A stretch of DNA of 64,000 bases from Rubripirellula tenax (GTDB lineage Bacteria > Planctomycetota > Planctomycetia > Pirellulales > Pirellulaceae): the NCBI RefSeq assembly GCF_007860125.1, contig NZ_SJPW01000003.1, positions 768,764-832,763 on the forward strand, given 5' to 3'. Below the pieces are notes generated by a model that saw nothing but the letters and a program-made list of their open reading frames with translations, was not told the DNA's origin and did not search any database. This document shows positions 14,423 to 52,474 of this stretch, piece by piece (positions within the stretch are counted from its first letter, which is position 1; each line of letters begins with the position of its first letter). A program made the position numbers and the translations under genes.

Positions 14423-16036
14423 CTACTTGCGTTTTCGCTTCTTCTCAGGATCCGTGTACGGCGATGACTCGAAAATCGGATCCTCGCTGACGCGTGGATC
14501 GCCAGTCGATCGCAGATGATTCATCAGCCGACGTTCCAGTTGCTTGGCGACGTCCACCATCTCTCGGTCTTCCGCCAAGTTTGTCATGCAATCGGGATCC
14601 GTTTGAACGTCATAAAGTTCAAACCGTGGACGTTGTCCGACGGCAAACTCGAACGACTGTGGATCTTGATCTTTATGTAGAACCACCCATGCCTTCGTGG
14701 GACTGGCATCCATATCACCGAACGCCGCAAACGTGTCCTCGGTAAGCGCCATCGCATCGGGAAGGTTGCCCTGTTTACCGAAACCGGGACCCGTTCCCAT
14801 CGGCCAACGATCGGGTTCGAAGTTGATGATGAACAAGTGCTGGTCGGTGCGAATGGCACGCTGCGGATACGGTTTGAAATCCGTCCGCGCGGCGGCGACA
14901 TGTCGTTCGCGTCCGGTGAACACGGCATCACGCGTCGCATCCACTTGACCGGCTTGGTCACTGGTCAAGACAGACATCAGCGACTTGGCAATCATCGTTT
15001 CGGGTGCATCGACGTTGGCCGCTTCCAAAAACGTCGGCGCCAGATCTGGTAAGGAGACAAAATCGTCGACGATGCGACCCGGTGTATCGATACCGGCTGG
15101 CCACCTAATTGCGAGCGGCACCTGGGTACCCATGTCATACAAGTTACATTTCCCACGCGTCACGCCGGGAATGCCATGGTCGCCGCTGACCACCAAAATC
15201 GTATTCTCGTAAGCGTCGATCCGTTTCAATTCTTCGATCAAGATTCCCAGGCCCGCGTCAAACGCTTGGACTTCCCCAAGGTAGTCCGCGAAGTCTTCGC
15301 GGACGGTTTCGACATCGGGAAGGTATGCCGGTAACTTGCCTTTGAGGGCTTCCGGGTCGATCCCCCACAATTCTTTGCCGCTGCCGGCGATCCATTTTCG
15401 GTGCGTGTTGGTGGGTCCGAACCAATAGCAAAAGGGCGAGTCACCGTCCAGTTTTCCGTCGTCGTTTGCATCCAAGAACGACCGTACATTTTTGCGGACT
15501 TCATTGAACAACTTCTTTTTCCCAGCCTGGTGATCGTCAGCCTTCATCGCGTTCTGCGAAAAACCGTTGAACGCCCGTCCGTGCGAGTTGAAAGCCGTCT
15601 TAGCGCCACCGTGCGGTGCGTCGGCGGGACTTCCCGGACTCCAAACTTTGTACGTATGACCGATGCGATAGCCATCTTGTTCCAGCAGCAACGGATAAGC
15701 AGGAATTGAAAAATCCCAAATCGCACCCTGCAGAATCGACGCCCGTTCGCATCGCCAAAACGGTTGGCCCGATAACAGCGAACTCCGGCACGGCGTACAA
15801 GATGGTGCGCTGACGAAAGCGCGAGTGAACAATACTCCCTGCTCGGCCACCGCATCGAAGTTCGGTGTGGAGACAACATCGTGGATGCTATCGGGTTGAA
15901 GGTCCGCGTAGGCACTCGCGTACTTGCCCCAGTCATCGGCGAAAGCCATCACAATGTTGGGACGCTCGGCCCGAGACGGGCTGGGCATCAGAATCAAAGC
16001 CAACAGGGCCAGTTCGCAAATCAGCCTAAACTTCAT
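14423..16036 (-). CDS. secreted sulfatase (type I, formylglycine-dependent)
   Basis: A 537-residue protein with an N-terminal signal peptide cleaved near residue 23 (SRAERPNIVM). The metal-site start PNIVMAFADDWG is typical. The formylglycine motif is SCTPCRSSLLSG, with Cys80 and Arg84 fitting CxPxR. VVSGDHGIPGVTRGKCNLYD holds further metal ligands. The overall pattern resembles heparan-N-sulfatase-like bacterial sulfatases. Planctomycetes of this group encode many sulfatases for marine sulfated polysaccharides; the substrate here is unknown. No maturase gene is seen in the window. Confidence 0.92.
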   Translation of the reverse strand: MKFRLICELALLALILMPSPSRAERPNIVMAFADDWGKYASAYADLQPDSIHDVVSTPNFDAVAEQGVLFTRAFVSAPSCTPCRSSLLSGQPFWRCERASILQGAIWDFSIPAYPLLLEQDGYRIGHTYKVWSPGSPADAPHGGAKTAFNSHGRAFNGFSQNAMKADDHQAGKKKLFNEVRKNVRSFLDANDDGKLDGDSPFCYWFGPTNTHRKWIAGSGKELWGIDPEALKGKLPAYLPDVETVREDFADYLGEVQAFDAGLGILIEELKRIDAYENTILVVSGDHGIPGVTRGKCNLYDMGTQVPLAIRWPAGIDTPGRIVDDFVSLPDLAPTFLEAANVDAPETMIAKSLMSVLTSDQAGQVDATRDAVFTGRERHVAAARTDFKPYPQRAIRTDQHLFIINFEPDRWPMGTGPGFGKQGNLPDAMALTEDTFAAFGDMDASPTKAWVVLHKDQDPQSFEFAVGQRPRFELYDVQTDPDCMTNLAEDREMVDVAKQLERRLMNHLRSTGDPRVSEDPIFESSPYTDPEKKRKRK

Positions 16037-16182
16037 GGTTCAATGTCGCGTTCGGATTAAGAGGAGTCCCGAATCGACGCGTCGAGACCTTGGTCAACAC
16101 GATAACAATCGGGCGCTTGTGTCGTGGCACCCTACAATGCGAAAATGGCTCGTTCCGAACCGAAAACAAGAAAGCATCTGCA

Positions 16183-16875
16183 ATGAGTGATGAAACAGGC
16201 GAAGATAAGAAGACTGCGAAGCCTTTGTCGGCTGGCGCGAGACGCGTTCTAGGTGTGTTGGTCGAGAAGGCAAAGACGACGCCAGACAACTATCCGCTGA
16301 CACTTGCGTCGTTGATCAGTGGATCGAACCAGAAATCGAATCGAGATCCGAAGATGGATCTCGACGACGAGGACGCGCTGTTAGCACTCGACGAACTGAA
16401 GGCGGCCGGTGCGGCTCGGGAGGTCCAGGGCAGTGGCCGGGCGATCAAATACCGACACGCCGCTTACGAATGGTTCGATGTCGACGGACCCGGTTCCGCG
16501 GTGATGACGGAACTTTTGCTTCGCGGTCCACAAACGCTTGGCGAATTGCGGACTCGCGCTTCCCGCATGCACCCCTTCGACGATTTGTCGATCATGCAAA
16601 CGACGGTCGACGGATTGATAGAAAAAGGCTTGGTTGAACCGATCACTCCGGCCGGTCGAGGGCAAATGTTCGCCCACAAACTGTATCCGCCCCAGGAACG
16701 ACAATACTTGCTTGCAAGAATCGAAAAGCATGCCGCCACCGACAGCTCGCCCGCGACCGAAACGAAGACGCCGAAAGCATCTGGGACTGCGGTCGACTCA
16801 CTATTGGCGAGACTTGAAACGGTCAGCGAGCGCATCGATGCACTGGAAAAACGGATCGCCGAACTGGAAAGTTGA
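16183..16875 (+). CDS. DUF480/YceH-like winged-helix protein
   Basis: A 230-residue protein with two winged-helix-like halves. Family signs are RRVLGVLVEKAKTTPDNYPLTLASLISGSNQKSNRDP, then RGPQTLGELRTRASRMHPFDDL and EPITPAGRGQMFAHKLYP. The C terminus is a short coiled coil (LARLETVSERIDALEKRIAEL). YceH function is not firmly known. The ATG (MSDETGEDK) is preferred over an upstream in-frame ATG at 16090 that lacks family similarity. It is convergent with the next gene at a 21-base gap. Confidence 0.87.
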   Translation: MSDETGEDKKTAKPLSAGARRVLGVLVEKAKTTPDNYPLTLASLISGSNQKSNRDPKMDLDDEDALLALDELKAAGAAREVQGSGRAIKYRHAAYEWFDVDGPGSAVMTELLLRGPQTLGELRTRASRMHPFDDLSIMQTTVDGLIEKGLVEPITPAGRGQMFAHKLYPPQERQYLLARIEKHAATDSSPATETKTPKASGTAVDSLLARLETVSERIDALEKRIAELES

Positions 16876-16896: not shown

Positions 16897-19800
16897 CTAT
16901 ATCCAGTCGCAAAGCGAATCAATGTAATCGGCGCTGCCGTCACGTTTCCAAGGATCCAGTTGAGCCTGGGCCTTGAGTTGTTGACCGCGGCGCATCGGTG
17001 TGACGAAGAATCGCGTTGCAATTTCCGGCAGCGCCGACATGTCACCCCACAGTTTTTCGAACTGGGCCACCGGATAGACGTCTTCCTGGGCGTGACCCCA
17101 ACGCTTTTTGACGTCCTTTAAGGTGACATACGTCGGCAGTCGTGTCGCCATTTGTCGAACCGCTTCGTCGACTTTGGAATTATTGTCCAAATCCGATCGG
17201 GTCAGCCCGAAAGCCGTTAGTAAACCGTCGATGTGAATCCACGTGGTCATCGAATTGTAGAACGTTAGCGCGAACTCGGCTTGTTCCGATGGCATCGCCA
17301 GACCTTCGACCAGCCGCGGTCGACCATCGACCAACGCCAGTCCGCCGCCGCGATCTTCCAATCGTCGACCGATCACTTCGAACGATAAAGTTTGATTGCC
17401 ATCGATGTGCAATCCGAGTAGTCCCGGATCAAGGCTGGCGCCGAGGGTGTCGATGTTATGCAACAACAGATGCTCGAGTTCGCCTTGATTGCGAAGCATC
17501 TCCGCCAACACACCGTTGCGTAGCAAGTTCGGAATCTCGTACCAGTGACCGACCGGATGAATGCACTGGCTGGGCACGTTGTCGGTGTAGTCGCTGCAGG
17601 GGCCGGTGGTCGTTGCCCAACCGATCAATGCTTGGCGGACGCTCTCGCGCACCTTTTGTTGCTGTTCGTCCAACACTTGTTGTGCGGTTTCTTCCCACAA
17701 AAAACGCAGATCGCGTACCGTCGGTATCATTCGCAATCCGACGCTGCGACCGGTCGAAACGCGGACGCGTTGGTCATCGAAACCAAAATAATCGTGACGT
17801 TGCAAATGATCGCGAATCGCGGCGTCGGTCAAGTGGCTGGTCGTAAAGACGTGCGGGATCGATCCATCGTACGTTTGCGATGTCTTTCGATTCTTGGCCA
17901 GGTGGACCTCCAAGAAACTGCGATGACGACCGGCGAAACGATTGAACGGGTGAAGCGCCTTGCAGACGCCGGCGCCTTCGGTCCATCGGCTACCCACGCC
18001 TGCGGCAAGTGTGACCACTGCGACCTTGCCGTCGCGAATCGCTTTCGCGCCGATGGCCTCGAACTTCGGATCGGCTCCGGTGCGAACGTCCGTCACGTGA
18101 CTTGGGCCGACGTCGCGGATCGTGGTCGCCGAAGGCAAACGGTTCTGCGCCAAGCCGATGCGGCCACTGCGCAAGTCTTCGCGAATCTGTTCGTGTTGTT
18201 GGCGATCGAAACCGGAAGCTGCCAAAATTTGTTGTAACGTTTCCGCTTTGTCGTTTCGCGATCGTCCTTGCGGCAGCACGCTGGACAACAACAGGTTCGC
18301 CGTTGTTGAATCACGGGTGTCATTGCAGCGGCGGCTGATCTGTTCCATTTCGATTCGCCGTCCGATCGGTAAGTCTCGCATCGGCGTTCGTAATAGACTG
18401 GGCAACACCAACGCGTAATACCGATCGGGCATAACTGCGTCTTCGCCGACCTTCAATTCGGCGAACGATCCGTTGTCGTTGATGGAAAAATCGTAGACGA
18501 CCGGATCCATCGCAAACGGCAATGATGTTTGCAGTTCGCGTTTGGTTTTCACCATCGCTCCGGCAAGCCAATCCTGAGCTTCGGGTTTGACGGCCGGTTC
18601 AAAGATGAAACCCATTCCGCCGCCGGCCATCCCGCCGAGCATCCAGAAACCCCAGAACTTATCTCCGTATCGCTGACGACACTGTTCGATCAACGAATCG
18701 GTGAACCGGTTGGTCGCCCAGGGAATGATCGTTTGCAGGGGGCCTTCGAAGTTTCGCGTCGTGACTTCACCGATTCGGCGGACGTCGCCTTCCCGAATCG
18801 CTTCGGTGACTTCGTCCAGAATCTTCATCGCTTCGCTTCGTCCGGCCCATTCTTTTTCGCTGCGCAACAAATAGTGTTCGGTCACCATTTCTAAAATCGG
18901 GCCGACGTTCTGTGCCATGCCGCCGTGGACCAGCACCAAACTGTCTTGAATCTTTTGACGCGTCTCGGGTGACGCTTCGTCATGATCCATGACGTGGTGA
19001 ACGGGCATCAGCCGGCCGCGGCTGATGCCGAATTCCGGGTCTTCCTTGCCGGCGGTCGTTCCACAGATCAACTTGATGCCTGGCCAAACGCCCCCCGAGT
19101 CTTGCCAACCGCCACCGCTGCCGCCGATCCATTCGCCAAGAATGGCGCGGGCGGCGACAAGTCGTCGGTCCGGTTCGGTCAATGGCCCCGAGAGCGACTG
19201 GATTTGACCCGTCGCACGCATCAGGATCGAGATCAACGAACCCAAAAGATTGGTCGATACCGCCAACCGCGAACCTTTGGGAATGTCATTGATCTTGCTG
19301 ACCAGTTCGATTCCTTGGCCTGGTCCGACGACGCGAGTCAACAGTTCAGCAATCGATTGGCGACAGCCTTCCAATCCGGGCGGCACCAATCCCGATGCGA
19401 TCACGGCGGCCTTGAGCAGCCCCAAATAGTCGCGTGCAAAATCGAACATTTCTGAAATCGATTCGACTTCGGTCGATGCACCCAGGTCGACGCTGGTCAA
19501 ACGAATGACCGGTCGATCAATGACGCGTAAATATGTCTCGATCGGAGGTTTGGGTTGCTCGTCACGACCGCGGACGCCCAAGTCGACGGACACGTTCAAG
19601 ACGCGGGCGCCTTCGGGGAAGTCCATTCCAAGAAAGAAAATATCGCTCCACGCGCTGTGCGAAAAGTCCATTCGCACAGCAGTGGTTTCTTTCATCAGCG
19701 GCGTCGTGCCCGTCGTCGAGTCGACGATTTTCAGCTCCGGCCGAATGCGTAACGGGTGATCGGCCGGGTGACCCAAACGAAACATCCACTGGTTTCCGCG

Positions 19801-20235
19801 GACGCTACGGACGCTGCGACGAACTTGGTCGGCGAGCGTTTGGAAACCAAGTTGGTGGTAGGCCTGGGCAAGCGAGCTGGCCAGCGCATCGCTGGGTCCA
19901 TCGGCGGACTGGGTTTCCAAAAACGTGTCGATGGCTTCGATAAAACGGCGTGATAGCAGGTGGTCGTAACCGGCATACGGGATCAAGCCCGATTGCGTCG
20001 GACCCAGTCTCGGCGGCAAGTGATACCGATAGATGGCTGCCAAGAAAAACAATGCGCGAACGCGGTGGTACAGGTTCGGCTCGGCTCGGCGAAACTGATC
20101 AAGCGCATCGACGTGCGACATCAATTGTTCAAGCGACAAGCCTTGACAAACCGATTCAAGTGAACGGTTACGAACGTTGTCGTCTTCCGAGACGATGATC
20201 TCGATCAGCGGGTCGAGGGGTTGTGATCGAATCAT
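16897..20235 (-). CDS. fused FKP-like GHMP sugar kinase and UDPGP-type nucleotidyltransferase
   Basis: A 1112-residue two-enzyme fusion. Residues 1-180 are helical and unassigned. A GHMP kinase of the L-fucokinase (FKP) type spans about 185-560: RMDFSHSAWSDIFFLGMDF, the lid motif GSRLAVSTNLLGS where FKP has GSGLGTSS, GGSGGGWQDSGGVWPG (371-386), and motif 3 GGMAGGGMGF. A UDPGP-family domain starts near 736: LAAGVGSRW (743-751), Lys759, IPHVFTTSHLTDAAIRDHL and PVGHWYEIPNLLRNGVL. The inferred reaction is free sugar to sugar-1-phosphate to UDP-sugar. FKP itself has the opposite domain order and a guanylyltransferase. The lid substitutions raise doubt about kinase activity. It overlaps the GalU-like gene by 4 bases. 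Confidence 0.85.
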   Translation of the reverse strand: MIRSQPLDPLIEIIVSEDDNVRNRSLESVCQGLSLEQLMSHVDALDQFRRAEPNLYHRVRALFFLAAIYRYHLPPRLGPTQSGLIPYAGYDHLLSRRFIEAIDTFLETQSADGPSDALASSLAQAYHQLGFQTLADQVRRSVRSVRGNQWMFRLGHPADHPLRIRPELKIVDSTTGTTPLMKETTAVRMDFSHSAWSDIFFLGMDFPEGARVLNVSVDLGVRGRDEQPKPPIETYLRVIDRPVIRLTSVDLGASTEVESISEMFDFARDYLGLLKAAVIASGLVPPGLEGCRQSIAELLTRVVGPGQGIELVSKINDIPKGSRLAVSTNLLGSLISILMRATGQIQSLSGPLTEPDRRLVAARAILGEWIGGSGGGWQDSGGVWPGIKLICGTTAGKEDPEFGISRGRLMPVHHVMDHDEASPETRQKIQDSLVLVHGGMAQNVGPILEMVTEHYLLRSEKEWAGRSEAMKILDEVTEAIREGDVRRIGEVTTRNFEGPLQTIIPWATNRFTDSLIEQCRQRYGDKFWGFWMLGGMAGGGMGFIFEPAVKPEAQDWLAGAMVKTKRELQTSLPFAMDPVVYDFSINDNGSFAELKVGEDAVMPDRYYALVLPSLLRTPMRDLPIGRRIEMEQISRRCNDTRDSTTANLLLSSVLPQGRSRNDKAETLQQILAASGFDRQQHEQIREDLRSGRIGLAQNRLPSATTIRDVGPSHVTDVRTGADPKFEAIGAKAIRDGKVAVVTLAAGVGSRWTEGAGVCKALHPFNRFAGRHRSFLEVHLAKNRKTSQTYDGSIPHVFTTSHLTDAAIRDHLQRHDYFGFDDQRVRVSTGRSVGLRMIPTVRDLRFLWEETAQQVLDEQQQKVRESVRQALIGWATTTGPCSDYTDNVPSQCIHPVGHWYEIPNLLRNGVLAEMLRNQGELEHLLLHNIDTLGASLDPGLLGLHIDGNQTLSFEVIGRRLEDRGGGLALVDGRPRLVEGLAMPSEQAEFALTFYNSMTTWIHIDGLLTAFGLTRSDLDNNSKVDEAVRQMATRLPTYVTLKDVKKRWGHAQEDVYPVAQFEKLWGDMSALPEIATRFFVTPMRRGQQLKAQAQLDPWKRDGSADYIDSLCDWI

Positions 20236-21104
20236 GACGCGGTTTGTGCCTCTAAACGATGCGACAACAGATCGATCATCTCGGCCAAGATCTGTTCCCG
20301 GTCGATGCCTGACAAACCAATCGCCAATTGAGCCTTGAGCAAACCGTATTTGATTCCCAAGTTGTAGCGAGACCCTTGAATTTCGTACGCCAAATAGCGG
20401 CCGCGTGACGGCAGCAGTGCGGCAGCATCCGACAGCGTCGGTTTCTTTTGTGATGGTCCCGCGGATTGCGAATCGGTCAGCAAACGATCGATCAGCGGCA
20501 TCACTTCACCCGTCAACACGTGCATGCCAAAGAAGCCCAGATAATGTCCGACGCGAAGCCCGGGCGTCACCAATTCTTGTTCGGCAAACGTCGGTGTCGG
20601 TTTCTCGACGACCCGTTGGATTTCGTAAAGTCGCTGTCGGCGCGGCACGTTGGGGCCGGATACGATTCCGAAGTACGGAAGATTGTTTTCGCGAGTCGAT
20701 TGAACGGCCGAAACACAACACTCAAATTCTGACGCGATGCTGACCAATTGCTTGGCACAGGGGATTTCATCGGCGCTGACGTACAAGTGGTCGCCGACCA
20801 AGTGCAAGAACGGTTCGTCGCCGACAAAGTCTTTGGCACGAGAAATCGCGTCGGCGTATCCCAGCGGACCAGGTTGTTCGAAGAATCGCAAACTGCCCAA
20901 GTGAGATCCCGCAGCCGACTGATACGCCGCATGGTCGCCGGGTCTGATGACCAAACAAATCTCTTCGACACCGGCAAGAACGGTCTCTTCGATGATCAAT
21001 TGCAGCGCCGTCTTCTCGTCGCCGTTCGCATCGACCAATTGTTGAAGCGGCAGGCGGTTTTGGTTGGGGGCGGCTGCCGTGATGACGGCCTTGCGGACCT
21101 GCAT
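20232..21104 (-). CDS. GalU-like nucleotidyltransferase with degenerate active-site loop
   Basis: A 290-residue protein of the glucose-1-phosphate nucleotidyltransferase fold. VRKAVITAA starts like GalU, EETVLAGVEEICLV and FEQPGPLGYADAISRA match GalU, and the sugar-binding end RYNLGIKYGLLKAQLAI (GalU: GYxxANxxxAL) is recognisable. The nucleotide loop, which in GalU reads GLGTRxLPxTKxxPKEMLP, is here AAAPNQNRLPLQQLVDANGD, so the GxGTR core and the Lys are missing. It is therefore either inactive or a regulatory or scaffolding subunit of the downstream fusion, with which it overlaps in ATGA. The first gene of the operon. Confidence 0.82.
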   Translation of the reverse strand: MQVRKAVITAAAPNQNRLPLQQLVDANGDEKTALQLIIEETVLAGVEEICLVIRPGDHAAYQSAAGSHLGSLRFFEQPGPLGYADAISRAKDFVGDEPFLHLVGDHLYVSADEIPCAKQLVSIASEFECCVSAVQSTRENNLPYFGIVSGPNVPRRQRLYEIQRVVEKPTPTFAEQELVTPGLRVGHYLGFFGMHVLTGEVMPLIDRLLTDSQSAGPSQKKPTLSDAAALLPSRGRYLAYEIQGSRYNLGIKYGLLKAQLAIGLSGIDREQILAEMIDLLSHRLEAQTAS

Positions 21105-21326: not shown

Positions 21327-21896
21327 CTACAGCTTCTTCAGCGCTCGGATGATATCGTCGGCCGTGCTGCGACCGGCATGCGAATCGCTTACCAATTTCA
21401 TGGCGACTTTTCCGTTTTCATCCAGGACAAACGTGGCCGGGTAGGCCGTCTCGCGCGGCGCATTCCAACGCAGACCCCACGTGTCCACCATTTTCATATC
21501 CGGGTCACGCACCATCACGATCGGATCGGGTAGCGTTCGCGGTCCCATGAAATCTTCCGCATGCTTGTCCAGCATCGATGCTTCACCGGGATAGACCAAG
21601 ATGATTCGCGATGCCTTTTCGCCGATCGTTTTGGCACGGTTTGCCAGCGCGCCGACTTGTCGGCTGCATAATGGACACTGGTAACCCGGAAAACCGCGCA
21701 GCACCACTACGACGACAGGCCCGTTTTTGCACTCGTCGCTCAACTTCATCATGTCGTCGTTACCGACGACGGGCAGATTGAAATCGGGCGCGACGTCACC
21801 GACTTTGGGCGAATCAGGCGCGGCTTCTTTGGCCGAAAGCGCTGCTCCGCTGATCACGAACAACACAGCAGTCATAGCGAATCGTAGAGTCAACAT
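21327..21896 (-). CDS. secreted peroxiredoxin-like (AhpC/TSA) protein
   Basis: A 189-residue thioredoxin-fold protein with a signal peptide (about 1-22). It has VGDVAPDFNLPVVG and a CxxC site in GYQCPLCSRQVGAL (Cys74, Cys77), then LDENGKVAMKLVSDSHAGR. A CxxC rather than a single peroxidatic Cys makes a thiol-disulfide reductase role possible alongside peroxide removal. The start ATG overlaps the stop of the upstream TIM-barrel gene by one base. The 222 bp between this gene's end and the GalU-like gene start show nothing recognisable. Confidence 0.85.
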   Translation of the reverse strand: MLTLRFAMTAVLFVISGAALSAKEAAPDSPKVGDVAPDFNLPVVGNDDMMKLSDECKNGPVVVVVLRGFPGYQCPLCSRQVGALANRAKTIGEKASRIILVYPGEASMLDKHAEDFMGPRTLPDPIVMVRDPDMKMVDTWGLRWNAPRETAYPATFVLDENGKVAMKLVSDSHAGRSTADDIIRALKKL

Positions 21897-22864
21897 CAGC
21901 CGTTCTTTTTTTCAAGGTATTGGATGCTTTGCACAATGCTTTCCAGCGGCGCTGGCGATTGGTCTTGTTCGACGTGGCATTCGCCGACCCCAATTTCTTG
22001 GGCCAACCGCATGACCGCTGGCATATCGATCACTCCATCACCGATCTCTTGAAAGGCATCGGTGGGAACTTTGCCTTCATCCGTGATGGTTCCGACATCC
22101 GGCTTCAAGTCTTTCAGGTGAACTTGCGAGATTCGGCCGGCCAACTTTTTCATCATCGCGATCGGATCTTCCCCACCGATCTTGACCCAAAACACATCCA
22201 ATTCAAATTCCATGAACTGCGGATCAAATCCTTCGACGAAAATATCAAACGCTCTTGTGGATCCGTCGTCGAGTTTCGCGAACTCAAACGAATGGTTGTG
22301 GTAACACATTCGCATGCCGGCATTGCGTGTCTTTTCGGCTGCGACGTTGGCCGCGTCGGTGATGCGTTGGCACTTTTCGATCGTGTCGCGCTGGTCGCGC
22401 GCGACGTAGCCGAACACGACGTGACGCAGTCCGATCCGCTCGGCAATCTCGATGGTACGGTCGACGGATATCACGTCCTTGCCGTCGGGATTGGTGATGG
22501 CATTGAAGTCCATGAACGCGCTGTGCACCATCATGCCGCGATCGCGCGCCATCGCGGCGATCTTGACGGCTTCGTCATTGATCGACATCAGTTCAATTTG
22601 GCGGTAACCCGCTTTGGCAACGGCATCCAGCGTGGCGGCCGGATCGTCTGCCATTTGGTTGCGAAGCGTATAGAGTTGCAACCCGATGCGGTCGAGGTAG
22701 GGCAGTGGTCCGTGGCCGGCCGATGCGTCGCCCGATTCGTCCGCCATCGCTGCCAGAGGGCGTGCCAACCAAGTGGCCAGTCCCGCCGTGGCGGCGCCGC
22801 CGATCAATTGTCGCCGTGTCATGGAATTTACTCGGATCGGTGAAGGGGAAGATTTTGAGTTCAT
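21896..22864 (-). CDS. sugar phosphate isomerase/epimerase-like TIM barrel, Tat-exported
   Basis: A 322-residue AP-endonuclease-2-like TIM barrel. The N terminus has a twin-arginine signal (TRRQLIGGAATAGLATW). The barrel shows LDAVAKAGYRQIELMS, RMCYHNHSFEF with metal-binding His/Glu, FELDVFWVKIGGEDP and ISQVHLKDLKPD. Members act on sugars or inositols, and many planctomycete copies are exported; the substrate is not predictable. The first 14 residues precede MTRRQL, which may be the real start at 22822. The longer form overlaps the rhomboid gene by 4 bases. Confidence 0.87.
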   Translation of the reverse strand: MNSKSSPSPIRVNSMTRRQLIGGAATAGLATWLARPLAAMADESGDASAGHGPLPYLDRIGLQLYTLRNQMADDPAATLDAVAKAGYRQIELMSINDEAVKIAAMARDRGMMVHSAFMDFNAITNPDGKDVISVDRTIEIAERIGLRHVVFGYVARDQRDTIEKCQRITDAANVAAEKTRNAGMRMCYHNHSFEFAKLDDGSTRAFDIFVEGFDPQFMEFELDVFWVKIGGEDPIAMMKKLAGRISQVHLKDLKPDVGTITDEGKVPTDAFQEIGDGVIDMPAVMRLAQEIGVGECHVEQDQSPAPLESIVQSIQYLEKKNG

Positions 22865-23769
22865 TGGTTTCTTTTTTCGCGTTGTCTTCGGCTGTATCGT
22901 TCGAGTGTCTTTCGTTCCGATGCGGTCAGGCTGGATTCACCCTGCTTATGGATTTTAGCCAGAATTCGGTCCGCATCTTCTGCTTCTTCCACAAGTTTTT
23001 TGTCCGGATCATGAAGTTTCAACTTCATACGCCGCGAACGGTCTCGCATCCGCGCCGGAAGATCTGCGATCCCTGATGCGGCCAAAAAGCTGAGATTCCA
23101 ACGCTGATAGAAATATGCCAAAGCGAATGCCGCACCGGCCAAGTGGACCGTAAAAGCAGTGTTGCCGGCCGCCCCGCCCGTCATGGCGCGAAGGGCCCCC
23201 AGCAGATCCATCCCCACGTACAAGACCGCCACGATCCACGCTTCGACGGGGAATACTGCCATCAAGTGAATCTTTTCATGCGGGTAGTACAAGGCGAACA
23301 AGATCACCGTCGCAATGACCGCACCGCTGGCCCCGATCGTCGTAACCGGACTGCCAAAACCGTACATCGCCGCATGCGTAATGCTGCCGACAACACCGCC
23401 GGCGAACAAACCGACCAGATAGAACCTCAGGAACTCCATCTGACCGATCCGCTGTTCGATGATCCGGCCAAAGAAATAGAGCCCGATCATGTTGAACAGC
23501 ACGTGGAACGGTCCGCGGATGTCGTGCAAAAATCCGTAGGTCAGAAATTGAAACCAATTCCAAGGCTGGATCAGCGTGTCGGCCGAGATCGCAAACCACG
23601 GCGCCAGAATGCTCTCGCGGCCGCCGTCGCCCTGTTTCGCAATAATCGCATCGATCAGGAAAACGACCACATTGATCACGATCAGCGTGATCGCCATGCT
23701 TCGTGGCTTCTCGACCCGATCCCAAGCAGTCGGTTCGTCGCGTCCGTAATCGCGGTCGTAAAGCCCCAT
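22861..23769 (-). CDS. rhomboid-family intramembrane serine protease
   Basis: A 302-residue membrane protein with six or more membrane segments. The catalytic serine is in GASGA (Ser148) and the histidine in VHLAGAAFA (His209); HVLFNMIGLYFFG is the conserved loop region with H89 and N93. The C-terminal cytoplasmic tail of about 70 residues (KKLVEEAEDADRILAKIHKQG) is typical of bacterial rhomboids with a linker repeat. First gene of an operon with the TIM-barrel and peroxiredoxin genes. Confidence 0.92.
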   Translation of the reverse strand: MGLYDRDYGRDEPTAWDRVEKPRSMAITLIVINVVVFLIDAIIAKQGDGGRESILAPWFAISADTLIQPWNWFQFLTYGFLHDIRGPFHVLFNMIGLYFFGRIIEQRIGQMEFLRFYLVGLFAGGVVGSITHAAMYGFGSPVTTIGASGAVIATVILFALYYPHEKIHLMAVFPVEAWIVAVLYVGMDLLGALRAMTGGAAGNTAFTVHLAGAAFALAYFYQRWNLSFLAASGIADLPARMRDRSRRMKLKLHDPDKKLVEEAEDADRILAKIHKQGESSLTASERKTLERYSRRQREKRNQ

Positions 23770-46180: not shown

Positions 46181-49100
46181 CTATCGTGTCGGCGGCGCGA
46201 CGTCGTGTAGGGTTGCTCCCTGTTCGTCGCTTAGCACCAAGACCGCGAACCGTGTCGCGCCCTTTGCGTCGTCCGCACTCAGACTGACGTAGTCAAAACG
46301 TCCGCGGGCATCGGTGTATCCGTCCTTGTAAAAGCGCACGCCGCCGTCGGGGTACTTCGCGTAGACCTTGACGTAGGCTTGGATGATCGGTCGGCGGGTT
46401 TCTGAGTTCGTTGTTTGCAATTGACCCATCGCTTCGGAAACGTACGTTGTTAAGTTTCCACCGTATGAAAGAGCCGTCGATCGCGAAGCTCCCGAGACGA
46501 CTTCGACCAACAGCGTTTGCCGGCGTTGATCGTCGGTCAGATCAAACGTGGCTACGCCGTTCGAATCGTCGAAGGCAAGTGATTCACTTGCCAGCGGACG
46601 TACCATCGCCATCCGGGCCAAGTCTTCGCGAACAAAGGGAGCCTTGCTGAACAGCAATTCCAAATCGACGCCATACAGATTCAGCGTCGCCGAATCGGTG
46701 CGACGATGGTCGATGCGCAGTTTGTTTCCTTCGACGCGAACGATGACTTCGGGTGACTCGTTCGCCGCATTGGATTGTCGCGTTTGTTGGTCGATGATCG
46801 CCAAATCACCGGTTCCTTGTCCGATGTCATTGGCGTCCGGTTTGGGATCACCCTTCGAAACAATTTTTTGCGTCTCGTTCAAGTCGCGATATTGGTCAAG
46901 ATGCGATTGCAGTTCCGTGAACCGAGCATTCCAGCGTGGCATCGGGTGATTGGCGTTTGCGCTGGCGATCTTTGCAGCGCGATCGTGATCGCCGCGGTGC
47001 AATGCCAAGTAGGCATCCATGTAGTCGTACTGCAATTTCGTCGCCACATCCCCGCGATCGACCTTTTCGAACGCGGCGATAGACTCGGCAATTCGATTTT
47101 GAATCAACAAGTAGTATGCCAGTGTCAGATGTTGTTTCGGAGCGATCTCGCGGCTGTAAGCAAGGGTGCGAAGGAATCCGCGGTACTGCTGCATCAACGT
47201 CGAATTCAAGATTTCGTCGATGTCGCCCAACCGGTGAATACGGGCGAGAACCAGCGGCGAATACTCAAGCATCTCATGCGTTTGACGATCGATCGGGTCA
47301 ACCGATAACAACGAAGACTCCAAGACCGGACCGACACTGCCAACCAAGTCATCGCGAACCGAAAGAAAGTTGCGAATCGCGGGTTCGTCGCGATGCTTGA
47401 ACGAGTACGCCCACATATTGCTGATGGCTAGCTTATTGGTATCCAGTGCTCCGACAACCACTTGGTAAATGTCTTGATCGTTCATTCGGTGAACGATCAA
47501 GTCCCAGTCCAACAAACGAACATTGGCCGTTTTCAAGAACGACGCAACTCGGTCGGGCGTTCCTGTGCGAGCGATTGTCGGCCAAGTTTCGTCGTTGTCT
47601 TCTTTGGGTTCGTCCAGCACGGTGATTGTTTCCGCGTCGGCTTGCGCGAGCAAAGTTTCACCGCTGGCGACCGTGCTGGGATAGTGATCGAAACGGCCTG
47701 ACGTGGGAAAATAGAACTCATACGTGATCGCGTCGACCGCAAAGGGTTTGATCGCGACAATGCGACTATCTAGCGAGCGCGTTCCGGCGACGGGAATGCT
47801 GCCGGCCGGAATTTGCCACATCACATTGACCGTTCGTTCCTGTGACGTCGGGTTCGACAAGACAGCTTGGCCCCGGTAAACCACGCCCGCAACGAACTCA
47901 TGGACGTCGCTTGCATCGGAATCGTCCGCCCGCACGAACCGTCCGCCAATCATGGTCGTGGTGGGTGTTTCGGCGACCGACAGCGGCACCAGACGCTTGG
48001 TGACAACAGCGACAGAGTGCGCGGGTTGGTAAGGGTCGCCCGGCTTGCTTGGCAAGTCGATATCACCGGCCGTGATCGGCAGACCACACAACGCCAAGGC
48101 CATCAAAGCCGAGTGGCGAGAATCGATCGGCCGCAGTAGGTGAGTGGAGAGAGCGATCTCGTCAGACGATCTGGTCGAGAGGTCAGCCCAAAAAAGGTTG
48201 GCATCGATCAGCAACGACGACGATGGGGCGGGCACTGATTGGACACGATCCCAATGGCTCTCGGCCCATTGGCGTGTCGTGTCGAGTTCCCGGAAAAAGC
48301 CAGTGGTCGATCGTCCCAAACGTCGGCGACTGAGGCTTTCCCACTCCTTCAGATCAGGAAGGGTTGCGGCGCCATTTGACATGGCTTTGCCCGCCGCAAT
48401 TCGTGGCTTTTCAACCCTCGATCCACCGCCGAAAAAAAGCATGTTGCCTGTGACGCTCGCATCGCCAAACGGTTCTCCCATCTCCATCAACGTGCCGTCG
48501 GAATCATCGTCGCGGCCAAAGCGAACGCTCAGTGCACTTTCAAAGCCCAGCCGAATGGCGGCATGATCGACGTCACGGTTCGCCACGACTTCGCGCAACT
48601 GCCGCTGAACCGTTTCACGAACATCGGGAACTCGCATCGCCAACATTGCTTGCTCGGCCGCGTTGAGTCGGTTGTACCGCCAAAGGGAAGTGAAGGAGGA
48701 CAAGTCGTCGCCGAGAAGCCAATGATCGACGAATTGTTTTTCTTTTTTGTTCGCCAAGTACGGCGTCACGACTTCATCGAAAAACGCCCGATCGTGTGCC
48801 CACAAGAAGACGTGAAGTTCATGACTTGCCAATCGTGAGTACGCTTCGGTCTTCGCCATCTTGTCGAGTCCGTCCCAACGGGCGAGGACATCAAAATCGT
48901 CTAGTCGCGAATCGTTGACGAGCGTTTTGTAAAGTTTGAATAGCGAAGTCACGGATCCAATCGTTTGCACCTGAGCACTGCCGAGGATCTGCAAGTCCAA
49001 GGGCGAATCAGGCGATGCCACCAGCACCGATTGCTCCATCGAATACGCCGTCTTCAAGTCCAGTGTTTTCGCCAATCGAAGGTCGCGAGTTTCGCAGTCG

Positions 49101-52100
49101 ACCAGGGGTCCCGCCACCGTTTGCGAGATCACCGTCGTGGGATCACAGACGACGATCTGCAGAATCGGCATGCCGTCGATCACATCCGCCGGAATGTTGA
49201 CGACTCCGTTTTCGTCCGGTCGCAAGTTGGCAACGATGACCCCCGGATCGGCCACGAAATCGAAATCGGAAGCCACTGCATCCGGGGCTTGTTTCGATTC
49301 GCGTCGTTGTCGCTCGAGTTGCTGACGCAGTGGGACTGCGGCCGTCGGTGGGACCGCTTGACCAACGTCCGCGGACTGGGATTGGTTCGTCGTTTCTTCG
49401 GTTTCCCAGGGGTTCAGGATCAACCCGGGTTGAGGAAGCATCACGCCTGGAAACTTGCTCGCATATCGACGGCGCAGAACGTACTGGTACTCGTCGCCGA
49501 GTCGTAGATCGCTGACGTATCCCGAAACGTCGCGGCGGACACTGCGCCCGGTCATCCCCGGCATCGGCAGATCCAACGCCGCGGCGGGATCTGCCTGTTC
49601 AAAATAGCGTCGGGCGTACAGGTGGACTCGCGCCAGTTCCGTTTGTCCAGACAACTTTATGGTCAATCCGTCGGCGTTGCGATCAACGTTGGCGATCGAG
49701 ATCGGACGCTCGGTATTGAGCGTTCGATGCCGGTTTTCGCCGACGGCTACTTCGTCGATGACCGGTCCATCGACCACGGCGATGACGATGGAGTCGCCCG
49801 TTTGTCGATCGATCAAGCGAAAGTCGCCGGCCGGTAAATCGGTGATCGTCAAGAAACCATTTCGGATCGAAACGTGCTGTGTCTCGTCCGAGCGAACTTG
49901 CCCACCGTCCATGGCGACTAGCCGAAATCGGGACGATGCTCGATCGACGGGTTCGAACCACGGCAACTCGATCGCGCGACCGATCGTGGTGAAGACTTCC
50001 GCCGCCCAAAACGTTCGATAGTCACCGAGTCGTTGAGTGTGCGAGATCCCGCCGCTGACCGCAAAGGTGATCGTCTCGACATTAGCCAAGTCACCCAATC
50101 GGACTCGTCCGGCCGCACCAGCCTGCAGCATTTGTTCGACGGGCGAGTTACGAAATCGTGTGCTCATCGAGACCGAAACGATTGCACCCGGAACGATTTC
50201 TCCGTTGCGACCGCGGACTTCGATGACATAGGTATCACGGTCACGCGTCAGGTATGCGTCGTGAACATTGCGTGTCTTGCGAACACCCGCGATGTTCCAC
50301 GATTGAGATGTCGACAGCGGGCGAACTTGTGCATCGGTCAGCGGTTTGACGGACCCGGTTAGTGTGACCGTCACATCCGCCAGTCTCTCCGGCACACGGT
50401 AAGGAACAACCATTTCGCCTTGCTGGGTCCACTCGATTCTGGCAGTCTCTTGCGTCGACGTGACACCATCAAGATCCGTCGACGCGATTGAGACTCGTCC
50501 GTCTTGAATGATCGAAGGATCGATCGGGACGCCCGTCATCGACAAGCGGGGACGGATAAGCACTTGAGTCTGTCCGCCGGAAAGCAATAAGGAACGGTCC
50601 AGAACCATTGCGGCCGAAAGTTCGTACGTTTCCGCGGGATGTGGCAAATCGATCGATTCCGCCAATACGCCGTCGCTGATGATCGCTTTGCGTCGAGTAT
50701 CCTTTGACGCAAGCGGAATCAGAATCCGGCTATCGGTTTCATCCGCGGTGAAGTGTCGCGACCCGATGCTGACGGATGCACCAGAGAGTGGTTCACGATT
50801 TTCGTCGATGACGGTCATGGCCAGTCCATCTGCGACCGTGGTGACAACATGGTCGATCGATCCACGGCGAACCATAGCGCGACCACGGATTCCCTTGCCG
50901 ATCAAGTCGACGACCCAGACACCTCGTCCAGCGATCTGCGGCAACTCGATGTCTTCGCGGTGTCGGCGGATCGCCGGGTGGTTGAACGCCAACTTTGTTT
51001 CATGCGTCGCAACCAACCCGTCCAGATCGATGTCCGTATCCAGTGGTTTGTCGTGGCTTCGATGGTAGGCGGGGACGTTGATCTGATAGATCCGAACGAC
51101 CAATTCGTCGACGTTCTTAAGTTCGACCGCCAATCGAGTTGATTTTTTGGGCGAGAAAAACAACGGGTTCGTCGGCGACAAACGCAACTCCACCGAGTCG
51201 CGCAGCGTTTGTCGATTGATCTCGCTCAGCATCGGATACCAGCGTGCTTCGTCGCCAACGCCGGCAAGCAACTTGGTTTCTGCGAAAACGCGGCTCAGAT
51301 ATTTCCGTTTTAAGTATGCATCAAATGCTTGCGTTGAATCTGCGTCGCGCAAGAAGTGCTCGAGGTGAGCTCGCACGACGGCTTCGTCGTTGCCGATCGG
51401 CGGCAACAAGGCCATTCCCATGAAGTCACGATTCAGATCGGCCGGTTGGATCTGCTGTTCGTTCCATCGTGGCAAAACGACATCGCTAAATCGCGGTAGC
51501 GCCAGGTATCGCAAAAACAAATCACGGTCGAACTTCGATTGTGACAAATTAGCTTCCAGCAACCGAAATGCCGCCGACGCTTTCAAGCTGTTGTAGCTGG
51601 GTGGAAGTGATTGGGCGTAATTTTCCACGCGCGTAAGGTAAGCGAGCCGTTCGTCCGGTTGGACCGACAGATCCACCTCGGCCCCGGGACGTAGCCGCGC
51701 CAGGATTGCCGTTACCATCGGTTCGTCATTCCCCACTTCGGCAACGTTCTTGGCGACGGCTTTCAGTTCATCAAGTGTTAGAACACGATGAGCGTGCAGA
51801 TTGCCAAACTTTCGATCGTTGGGCCGCCGACTTTTCAGTTCCTTGATCACGAGTTGACCAAGATTCTCGATCGTCGGTTGTTGGATTCGATCAAGCAGTC
51901 GATCCAGTGTGATGGCGTAGCCTGCGGCTTCATCGCGTACAAAGCGATCAGCCAAGAAATTGATTGCCGAAGGTTTCAGTGCGTCGCTACGAGTGATCGC
52001 GTCTCGGATGATTTGCCGGACGTCCAACACGGTTTCGTCTAGCTCGCTCGGGTACCGCCGCTCGTGGCGCGTGGCTGGCGGGGCGTGATTAAGCTGGATC

Positions 52101-52474
52101 CCGAGGCGGCGTACCAAGTGATCGATCGTTCGTTGAGGCGACTGGTCATAGGTCAGTAAACGCTGGCGATCGATCATCGCTTTGACCGTGGCGCTGGGTT
52201 GGCCTAGGTGAGGCGGCGCCCACTCGGCCAGGATCGCTTCGGCTTTTTCAAACTGTGCCGTCGTTTGATAGTGCAGGCAGTGAAAAAAGTAATAGTCGTC
52301 GGTCCCGGGAATCAGTTCATCGAGCGCCGATTGACGATCCTCGGCCAAGGCATAACGTTCGATCCATCCGATCGGTTCGGCATGTCCGAGCGGGCTGAAA
52401 AGAAGCGAGCCAACGATGCAGGACCAGAAAAACGCAACGACGGACTGATGCACTCGCGCCATAGCAACCACCAA
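46181..52474 (-). CDS. giant secreted protein, possibly alpha-2-macroglobulin-like
   Basis: A 2097-residue protein with a signal peptide (FFWSCIVGSLLFSPLGHA). The first 400 residues look helical and repeat-like. From about 440 (LFFSPKKSTRLAVELKNVDELVVRIYQINVP) a series of beta domains resembles the MG domains of bacterial alpha-2-macroglobulins, with Ig-like pieces such as MTVIDENREPLSGASVSIG. The region about 1270-1500 is helical. I see no GCGEQ thioester motif, so a protease trap role is uncertain. The C-terminal part has a helical TPR-like stretch near 1870-1930 and a last domain ending HDVAPPTR. The overall identity is unresolved. Confidence 0.72.
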   Translation of the reverse strand: MVVAMARVHQSVVAFFWSCIVGSLLFSPLGHAEPIGWIERYALAEDRQSALDELIPGTDDYYFFHCLHYQTTAQFEKAEAILAEWAPPHLGQPSATVKAMIDRQRLLTYDQSPQRTIDHLVRRLGIQLNHAPPATRHERRYPSELDETVLDVRQIIRDAITRSDALKPSAINFLADRFVRDEAAGYAITLDRLLDRIQQPTIENLGQLVIKELKSRRPNDRKFGNLHAHRVLTLDELKAVAKNVAEVGNDEPMVTAILARLRPGAEVDLSVQPDERLAYLTRVENYAQSLPPSYNSLKASAAFRLLEANLSQSKFDRDLFLRYLALPRFSDVVLPRWNEQQIQPADLNRDFMGMALLPPIGNDEAVVRAHLEHFLRDADSTQAFDAYLKRKYLSRVFAETKLLAGVGDEARWYPMLSEINRQTLRDSVELRLSPTNPLFFSPKKSTRLAVELKNVDELVVRIYQINVPAYHRSHDKPLDTDIDLDGLVATHETKLAFNHPAIRRHREDIELPQIAGRGVWVVDLIGKGIRGRAMVRRGSIDHVVTTVADGLAMTVIDENREPLSGASVSIGSRHFTADETDSRILIPLASKDTRRKAIISDGVLAESIDLPHPAETYELSAAMVLDRSLLLSGGQTQVLIRPRLSMTGVPIDPSIIQDGRVSIASTDLDGVTSTQETARIEWTQQGEMVVPYRVPERLADVTVTLTGSVKPLTDAQVRPLSTSQSWNIAGVRKTRNVHDAYLTRDRDTYVIEVRGRNGEIVPGAIVSVSMSTRFRNSPVEQMLQAGAAGRVRLGDLANVETITFAVSGGISHTQRLGDYRTFWAAEVFTTIGRAIELPWFEPVDRASSRFRLVAMDGGQVRSDETQHVSIRNGFLTITDLPAGDFRLIDRQTGDSIVIAVVDGPVIDEVAVGENRHRTLNTERPISIANVDRNADGLTIKLSGQTELARVHLYARRYFEQADPAAALDLPMPGMTGRSVRRDVSGYVSDLRLGDEYQYVLRRRYASKFPGVMLPQPGLILNPWETEETTNQSQSADVGQAVPPTAAVPLRQQLERQRRESKQAPDAVASDFDFVADPGVIVANLRPDENGVVNIPADVIDGMPILQIVVCDPTTVISQTVAGPLVDCETRDLRLAKTLDLKTAYSMEQSVLVASPDSPLDLQILGSAQVQTIGSVTSLFKLYKTLVNDSRLDDFDVLARWDGLDKMAKTEAYSRLASHELHVFLWAHDRAFFDEVVTPYLANKKEKQFVDHWLLGDDLSSFTSLWRYNRLNAAEQAMLAMRVPDVRETVQRQLREVVANRDVDHAAIRLGFESALSVRFGRDDDSDGTLMEMGEPFGDASVTGNMLFFGGGSRVEKPRIAAGKAMSNGAATLPDLKEWESLSRRRLGRSTTGFFRELDTTRQWAESHWDRVQSVPAPSSSLLIDANLFWADLSTRSSDEIALSTHLLRPIDSRHSALMALALCGLPITAGDIDLPSKPGDPYQPAHSVAVVTKRLVPLSVAETPTTTMIGGRFVRADDSDASDVHEFVAGVVYRGQAVLSNPTSQERTVNVMWQIPAGSIPVAGTRSLDSRIVAIKPFAVDAITYEFYFPTSGRFDHYPSTVASGETLLAQADAETITVLDEPKEDNDETWPTIARTGTPDRVASFLKTANVRLLDWDLIVHRMNDQDIYQVVVGALDTNKLAISNMWAYSFKHRDEPAIRNFLSVRDDLVGSVGPVLESSLLSVDPIDRQTHEMLEYSPLVLARIHRLGDIDEILNSTLMQQYRGFLRTLAYSREIAPKQHLTLAYYLLIQNRIAESIAAFEKVDRGDVATKLQYDYMDAYLALHRGDHDRAAKIASANANHPMPRWNARFTELQSHLDQYRDLNETQKIVSKGDPKPDANDIGQGTGDLAIIDQQTRQSNAANESPEVIVRVEGNKLRIDHRRTDSATLNLYGVDLELLFSKAPFVREDLARMAMVRPLASESLAFDDSNGVATFDLTDDQRRQTLLVEVVSGASRSTALSYGGNLTTYVSEAMGQLQTTNSETRRPIIQAYVKVYAKYPDGGVRFYKDGYTDARGRFDYVSLSADDAKGATRFAVLVLSDEQGATLHDVAPPTR

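Follow-up and report, generated by a model that had tools for sequence, protein, structure and literature searches.

A putative sugar kinase and UDPGP-type nucleotidyltransferase fusion and its co-inherited GalU-like partner in Rubripirellula tenax and other bacteria

Proteins that unite a sugar-1-kinase and a pyrophosphorylase in one chain occur in both bacteria and eukaryotes. In FKP, a guanylyltransferase precedes a fucokinase-type GHMP kinase, and in the zebrafish protein DrGKUP a glucuronokinase is joined to a putative uridine diphosphate (UDP)-glucuronic acid pyrophosphorylase (PMC3938481; articles are cited throughout for individual sections). Nucleotidyltransferase homologues can also act as regulators, as is the case with GMPPA, a non-catalytic paralogue that regulates GMPPB (PMC11228364). 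In this paper, we report the analysis of a 64,000-nucleotide stretch of Rubripirellula tenax (contig NZ_SJPW01000003.1, positions 768,764 to 832,763; hereafter the window), in which a gene termed FK (16897..20235, minus strand) encodes a 1112-residue fusion of a kinase half and a nucleotidyltransferase half and is preceded by GA (20232..21104, minus strand), which encodes a GalU-like protein of 290 residues. We tentatively propose that FK may be a sugar-1-kinase/UDP-sugar pyrophosphorylase serving salvage, with GA as its non-catalytic sensor subunit.

A first-pass annotation of this locus had described one frame with a kinase followed by a UDPGP domain, the opposite of the FKP order. The coordinates, lengths and strand proved exact, and both domains were recovered by matches to Pfam, NCBIfam and PDB sequences. 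The fusion begins with an N-terminal domain (residues 1-185) without assignment, for which a PDB sequence search gave no match up to E 10, and continues with a fucokinase-type GHMP kinase half (residues 187-553; 18577..19677, minus strand), a linker (residues about 560-720) and a UDPGP-type nucleotidyltransferase half (residues about 723-1112; 16900..18069, minus strand). An assembly error or frameshift as the origin of the fusion was ruled out by 75 named loci from many assemblies, each with an open frame that aligned to 1050 or more residues of FK. Two separate genes, the arrangement that would point to such an error, were seen in one deeper relative (L114, 2152-6420 of G287:C101), in which frames for the kinase (748 aa) and the nucleotidyltransferase (569 aa) are parted by a 190-aa frame without a Pfam match.

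Residues 186-555 of FK match NCBIfam PRK13412 (fucokinase/fucose-1-phosphate guanylyltransferase) at profile positions 615-942 of 974 (E 2.1e-22), and residues 187-553 match the solved FKP chains with E values of 1.9e-10 (9iip) to 1.5e-9. A profile-profile comparison (hhalign) aligned the kinase half with two planctomycete FKPs over 348 columns (E 1.7e-17), and the fucokinase-type similarity extends over the GHMP domain. Against the FKP model NF009948, on the other hand, FK scored 78.7 bits where the cut-off is 721. FK would work like an FKP yet is not one, because the domain order, the second domain and the model cut-off of FKP are all lacking. These comparisons also bear on the quite improbable alternative of a rearranged FKP, that is, a salvage enzyme making guanosine diphosphate (GDP)-L-fucose. 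Fucokinases are indeed the closest to the kinase half and the fucose-contact residues are mostly kept, but the second half is UDPGP-type, unlike the FKP guanylyltransferase, and PRK13412 covers the kinase part only, with a score far under the cut-off. Furthermore, true FKPs over the cut-off were present in two of 99 relatives, G028 (L122, C474) and G058 (L121, C4), and FK is no simple replacement of FKP since both of these genomes also carry FK.

The functional residues of the kinase half were mapped through the FK-BfFKP alignment, with invariance taken over 74 homologues. In BfFKP, R592 lies by the anomeric oxygen, W599 stacks on the sugar, D601 and Q761 bind O3/O4 and T602 is an O3 contact, while D762 is the general base, E751 is essential, S719 is a metal ligand, D644 and L722 line the base and A900 makes a backbone phosphate contact (PMC11982464). 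BfFKP R592, W599, D601, D644, S719, L722, E751, Q761 and D762 are identical to FK R188, W196, D198, D250, S327, L330, E368, Q378 and D379, respectively, each invariant (74/74), and thus include the catalytic Asp (D379) and the essential Glu (E368). The side chains that differ are T602 (I199 in FK), M645 (L251), P666 (Y270), I669 (L273) and S720 (T328). Altogether 9 of 14 functional side chains are identical, compared with 95 of 322 positions overall (hypergeometric p 0.006, only a guide as the 14-residue list was picked by the analyst). Backbone contacts were excluded from that list; among them, BfFKP G759 is FK G376, G717 is A325 and A900 aligns with M536.

The phosphate loop of GHMP fucokinases has the pattern P-x-G-S-G-L-G-[TS]-S. 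FK instead carries PKGSRLAVS, and the lid GSRLAVST (residues 321-328; 19252..19275, minus strand), found as first quoted, was invariant in 74/74 homologues and recurred in 8/8 kinase halves read from more distant or odd relatives. R323 replaces G715 of BfFKP, A325 replaces G717 and V326 replaces T718, all three invariant. Loop regular expressions applied to 14 kinase-like loci of relatives were answered by 0/14, and a looser version by 2/14 (L165, SGIGSSS; L174, SGMGSSS), so that these matches do not serve as a real control. On these alignments, the lid of FK is a fixed, family-specific change within an otherwise nearly complete active site.

Some of these differences weigh against a working kinase, namely the replacement of the O3 contact T602 by I199, the alignment of the phosphate contact A900 with M536, and the changes at 5/9 positions of the BfFKP loop 712-720 (A712K, G715R, G717A, T718V and S720T). 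The FK kinase may therefore be dead, because an arginine stands at a glycine position of the FKP phosphate loop. In that case, the GHMP half would be a pseudokinase whose arginine lid refuses adenosine triphosphate (ATP) and which binds a sugar or sugar-1-phosphate to feed or control the UDPGP half. Such a role would suit the invariance of G715R, G717A and T718V as well as the canonical PKGSGLGTS of the true FKPs L121 and L122, but D379, E368, S327, D250 and L330 are all invariant too, and a mere binding domain would hardly require E368, S327 and D379 together; we regard it as unlikely, although it is the rival to be taken most seriously for this half. The first-pass annotation had offered lost activity as one meaning of the lid, a suggestion that is weakened by the nine FKP side chains kept identical and invariant, even though the alteration itself is real. 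We read the kinase as working but altered more than as dead, and the kinase half is probably active. A phosphoryl donor other than ATP, such as pyrophosphate (PPi) released by the second half, would be very hard to credit: the altered loop with its invariant arginine is all that speaks for it. On the other side, D250 and L330, which line the base, are invariant and L251 and L273 are conservative, so that the site would seem to hold a nucleotide.

The second half of FK matches Pfam UDPGP (PF01704) at residues 880-1003 (E 2.1e-10; 40.3 bits against a gathering cut-off of 22). The same segment matches solved UGPs, and residues 723-824 match a UDP-N-acetylglucosamine diphosphorylase. By profile-profile comparison, this half aligned with UDPGP-family proteins of its own genome and of relatives over 288 columns (E 3.6e-17). 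AnUGP residues (PMC10470519) were mapped by alignment and scored over the same 74 homologues. L121, G124, K135, G227 and H228 of AnUGP are FK L743, G746, K759, G896 and H897, and N256, D258, E307 and N329 are N927, D929, E977 and N994, all invariant, so that the nucleotide loop is present together with K135, H228 and D258; G123 is A745 (A in 71, G in 3). Less favourable to activity are K292, which is R962 in FK (arginine in 73/74), the unconserved N331 (M996; M in 48), and K403, which corresponds to K1088 (74/74) only by a hand-placed R-x5-K spacing beyond the end of the profile alignment. The nucleotidyltransferase half nevertheless looks competent and is likely an active pyrophosphorylase; family membership suggests that uridine triphosphate (UTP), and not another nucleoside triphosphate, would be its nucleotide.

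GA belongs to the sequence family of GalU, of which GalF is a low-activity homologue. It matches NTP_transferase and the solved YngB and GalU chains, with YngB the best (E 2e-20). The galU model was matched by each of the 62 aligned GA proteins with an E value no higher than 0.01, while GA of the window scored 75.3 bits against TIGR01099 galU, where the curated cut-off is 326.8. The GxGTR loop is gone and, as the first-pass annotation had quoted, AAAPNQNRLPLQ stands in its place. At the GTR-aligned places of the 62 proteins, Thr is replaced by Q in 56, by H in 5 and by a gap in 1, and none retains the Thr; an intact loop was thus absent from these partners, and a near-intact one was seen only in the partner of L112 (1571-6087; G283:C45), a distant FK homologue of 46% identity with a GA-like partner. 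GA is likewise without the PKE segment of GalU. In 7/7 GA proteins aligned with the L112 partner and two nucleotidyltransferases, an 8-residue gap covers the KQL/PKE-like stretch; the L112 partner, whose HKQLHPIVDRDG bridges both forms, was used to place the deletion, whereas the HMMER alignment of GA with YngB puts a three-residue gap just behind PKE (K28, E29).

The sugar-diphosphate pocket has fared differently. YngB residues (PMC7961091) were mapped in an alignment that uses the chain number plus one. Q105, G110, D133, G172, E191 and K192, which make up the sugar/diphosphate pocket and include the metal Asp, are kept in 62/62 GA proteins as Q77, G82, D105, G146, E167 and K168, while YngB D134 is H106 (His in 62/62). 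GA R184, Y188, H195 and R246 are also invariant, the first three in or near an 11-residue insertion relative to YngB. In GalU itself, T20M/R21H lowers Vmax by three orders of magnitude (PMC4643126). Since GxGTR and PKE are lost and the pocket is kept, GA should be poor as a pyrophosphorylase yet able to hold a sugar diphosphate, in keeping with the first description of the partner as dead. GA may, however, not be dead everywhere, because 24/62 proteins have Arg where the GTR loop aligns and 20/62 an Asp at the YDxG-like place (Asn in 42).

The L112 partner retains the near-canonical loop AAGRGLKPYP..HKQLHPIVD and DIG, which suggests that GA descended from an active enzyme, with the L112 partner as a possible intermediate between an active GalU and GA. 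This partner also lends something to the idea that GA is no sensor but a subunit that catalyses an altered reaction, for instance a nucleotidyltransferase whose site FK would complete in trans, or one that takes another nucleotide. The invariance of D105, E167, K168 and R246 would fit such a subunit, as would Q15 in 56/62 and the arginine in 24/62 at the GTR-aligned places; the deletion of the PKE stretch in the window GA and six others, the absence of the GTR Thr from 62/62 and the effect of T20M/R21H in GalU argue the other way and leave it improbable.

The association of GA with FK was followed through 111 FK sources, comprising the window and 110 loci with near-copies included. The stop of GA and the start of FK overlap by four bases (ATGA, 20232..20235, minus strand), as the earlier annotation had stated; the junction reads ...GCGTC ATGA TTCG..., and translational coupling of the two genes is likely from this overlap. 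GA lies upstream of FK on the same strand in 94/111 sources, one of them (L095) a fragment, and within 400 bases by frame ends in 90 of the 94; the distance is 650 and 1197 bases in L023 and L038, and in L029 and L102 the two overlap only through an overlong mechanical frame. The term operon is therefore apt for most loci and not for the rest. Of the 17 sources without an upstream GA, 7 offer fewer than 300 bases in that direction, and the upstream DNA of the other 10 runs to 736 bases or more. Whole-genome searches for eight of those ten found GA elsewhere in 8/8 (E 4.7e-113 or better), the copy of G393 having an in-frame stop, and the other two, L096 and L099, are 96-98% copies of L078. Three cases with little upstream DNA were also searched, giving GA in two and a weak match only in G404.

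Searches of the genomes G133, G143, G247, G275 and G287, which are deeper-branching and 84-90% complete, gave no GA, so that GA was present elsewhere in 8/13 non-adjacent carriers searched. This counts against an indispensable partner, and FK may work without GA because 5/13 of these carriers show none; loss of GA in the five is likely, as a GA-like partner accompanies the FK homologue of L112, which branches deeper still. Among 99 relatives, GA was found in 30/31 FK carriers and in 0/68 non-carriers (E 1e-30 for both genes; Fisher p 1.5e-24 with relatedness ignored). The single exception was G038, in which FK is present as a fragment of 75 residues. The two genes are thus together in 30/99 relatives, GA never occurs there without FK, and GA is nearly always inherited with FK among the relatives examined. 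Decay of GA is ruled out by its conservation and its co-occurrence with FK, and the word relic, applied to it at first, is wrong because the gene is conserved and co-inherited.

FK relatives are encoded in at least 576 of at least 591 candidate stretches (genome_contigs), which is beyond chance, and the best 80 of those stretches show 59-77% identity in the best segment. By title, the loci in which the fused frame returns, at about 60% identity, belong to Planctomycetota, Verrucomicrobiota, Lentisphaerota, Kiritimatiellota, Chloroflexota and Armatimonadota, although titles of metagenome bins may mislead and one names Candidatus Nealsonbacteria. A FastTree tree of 104 rows is mostly grouped by titled phylum, with 6 changes for 6 groups where the minimum is 5 (a count that leaves out 36 rows without a group). 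FK was carried by 17/294 sampled genomes of the phylum of the window, its own included, and by 18/194 genomes of the phylum to which G400, also a carrier, belongs. Recent horizontal spread is disfavoured by this grouping. Because the tree groups by phylum and the carriers are patchy, ancient inheritance followed by repeated loss is the better fit, and FK seems to serve an accessory function that is old, under strong constraint and frequently lost.

In the salvage route that we propose, the first half of FK would phosphorylate the anomeric hydroxyl of a free sugar in the manner of L-fucokinase, using ATP despite the altered lid; W196, D198, Q378 and D379 point to a fuco/galacto-like sugar. The second half, UAP/USP/UGP-like and of the UDPGP family, would react the sugar-1-phosphate with UTP, with a UDP-sugar and PPi as the products. 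GA would have a GalU fold that holds nucleoside triphosphates poorly but keeps its sugar-diphosphate pocket. It would most likely bind the sugar-1-phosphate or the UDP-sugar and regulate or stabilise FK, presumably within a physical complex, as GMPPA does GMPPB; by this analogy, we lean towards GA being a non-catalytic regulator. A more speculative and rather doubtful extension is that the pair forms a new sugar-activation machine, in which a strictly conserved arginine would mark a kinase lid that is reworked and not broken, a UDPGP domain would be fused to the kinase in a new order, and a near-obligate GalU-fold pseudoenzyme, its nucleotide loop lost and its sugar-diphosphate pocket kept, would sense an intermediate or product.

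After near-copies were dropped, GA was near FK in 83/100 sources. No other family recurred widely and no other pathway neighbour was conserved within the fetched DNA around FK in these 100 sources, so that the neighbours do not point to the sugar, which counts against the proposed route. A second neighbour cluster (51 sources), antisense and upstream of FK, is presumed to be the reverse frame of GA. In the window, sulfatase and DUF480 genes occupy the flank at 14423-16875, with like clusters in 11 and 13 sources among the listed close relatives, and genes for a redoxin, a xylose-isomerase-like TIM barrel and a rhomboid protein the flank at 21327-23769. Where GA is not adjacent, or in the split L114, ten frames near FK matched PALP, NAGPA, DinB, HEAT/cytochrome c or DUF2851, or had no match. 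The own genome (G000) has no galU-model match over the curated cut-off, one that 9/14 control genomes also miss, and its best match is GA; its source of UDP-glucose is for this reason not obvious. A separate UDPGP-family gene was found in the own genome and 39 relatives (40/40, E 1.5e-33 or better). Elsewhere in the window, an open frame of 2097 residues (46181-52474, minus strand) has no Pfam match at E 1e-4.

Compared with known systems, FK shares with FKP (BfFKP, 5yys/9iit) a fucokinase-type GHMP kinase and a sugar-1-phosphate nucleotidyltransferase, along with the catalytic and most of the sugar-contact residues. It differs in placing the kinase first where FKP has it last, in having a UDPGP-type instead of a GFPP-type nucleotidyltransferase, in the loop GSRLAVST instead of GSGLGTSS, and in adding an N-terminal domain and a GalU-like partner gene. 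DrGKUP is similar in uniting a GHMP sugar-1-kinase with a putative uridylyltransferase for UDP-sugar salvage, but it is eukaryotic, its nucleotidyltransferase comes first and is of a short bacterial type, and its pyrophosphorylase activity is putative (PMC3938481). With the UDPGP family (PF01704: UGP, UAP and USP), FK has in common the nucleotide loop, the Lys, His and Asp, the sugar-pocket residues and a profile match over most of the domain; it stands apart in the fusion behind a kinase, the unconserved position of AnUGP N331 and the Arg at K292. GA resembles GalU, YngB and GalF in sequence family and sugar-diphosphate pocket residues and departs from them in the missing GxGTR, the deleted PKE stretch and the 11-residue insertion relative to YngB. 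GMPPA offers an analogy only: it is a nucleotidyltransferase homologue without catalysis of its own that pairs with an active pyrophosphorylase, whereas GA is GalU-type and no close paralogue of the UDPGP half.

The FK architecture is unmentioned in the abstract and evolution section of a 2025 FKP phylogeny (PMC12732313), and no description of an FK-type enzyme was found in the open-access literature searched, a scope outside which most subscription papers fall. If active, the enzyme would give several phyla a nucleotide-sugar salvage route that has gone unrecognised. It would also be a natural catalyst for the one-pot synthesis of UDP-sugars, and it could serve to examine how a GHMP kinase functions when its phosphate loop bears an arginine. 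While sugar-1-kinase and pyrophosphorylase fusions as such are known, FK is set apart, in the literature examined, by the order of its domains, its UDPGP-type second half and its co-inherited GalU-like pseudoenzyme.

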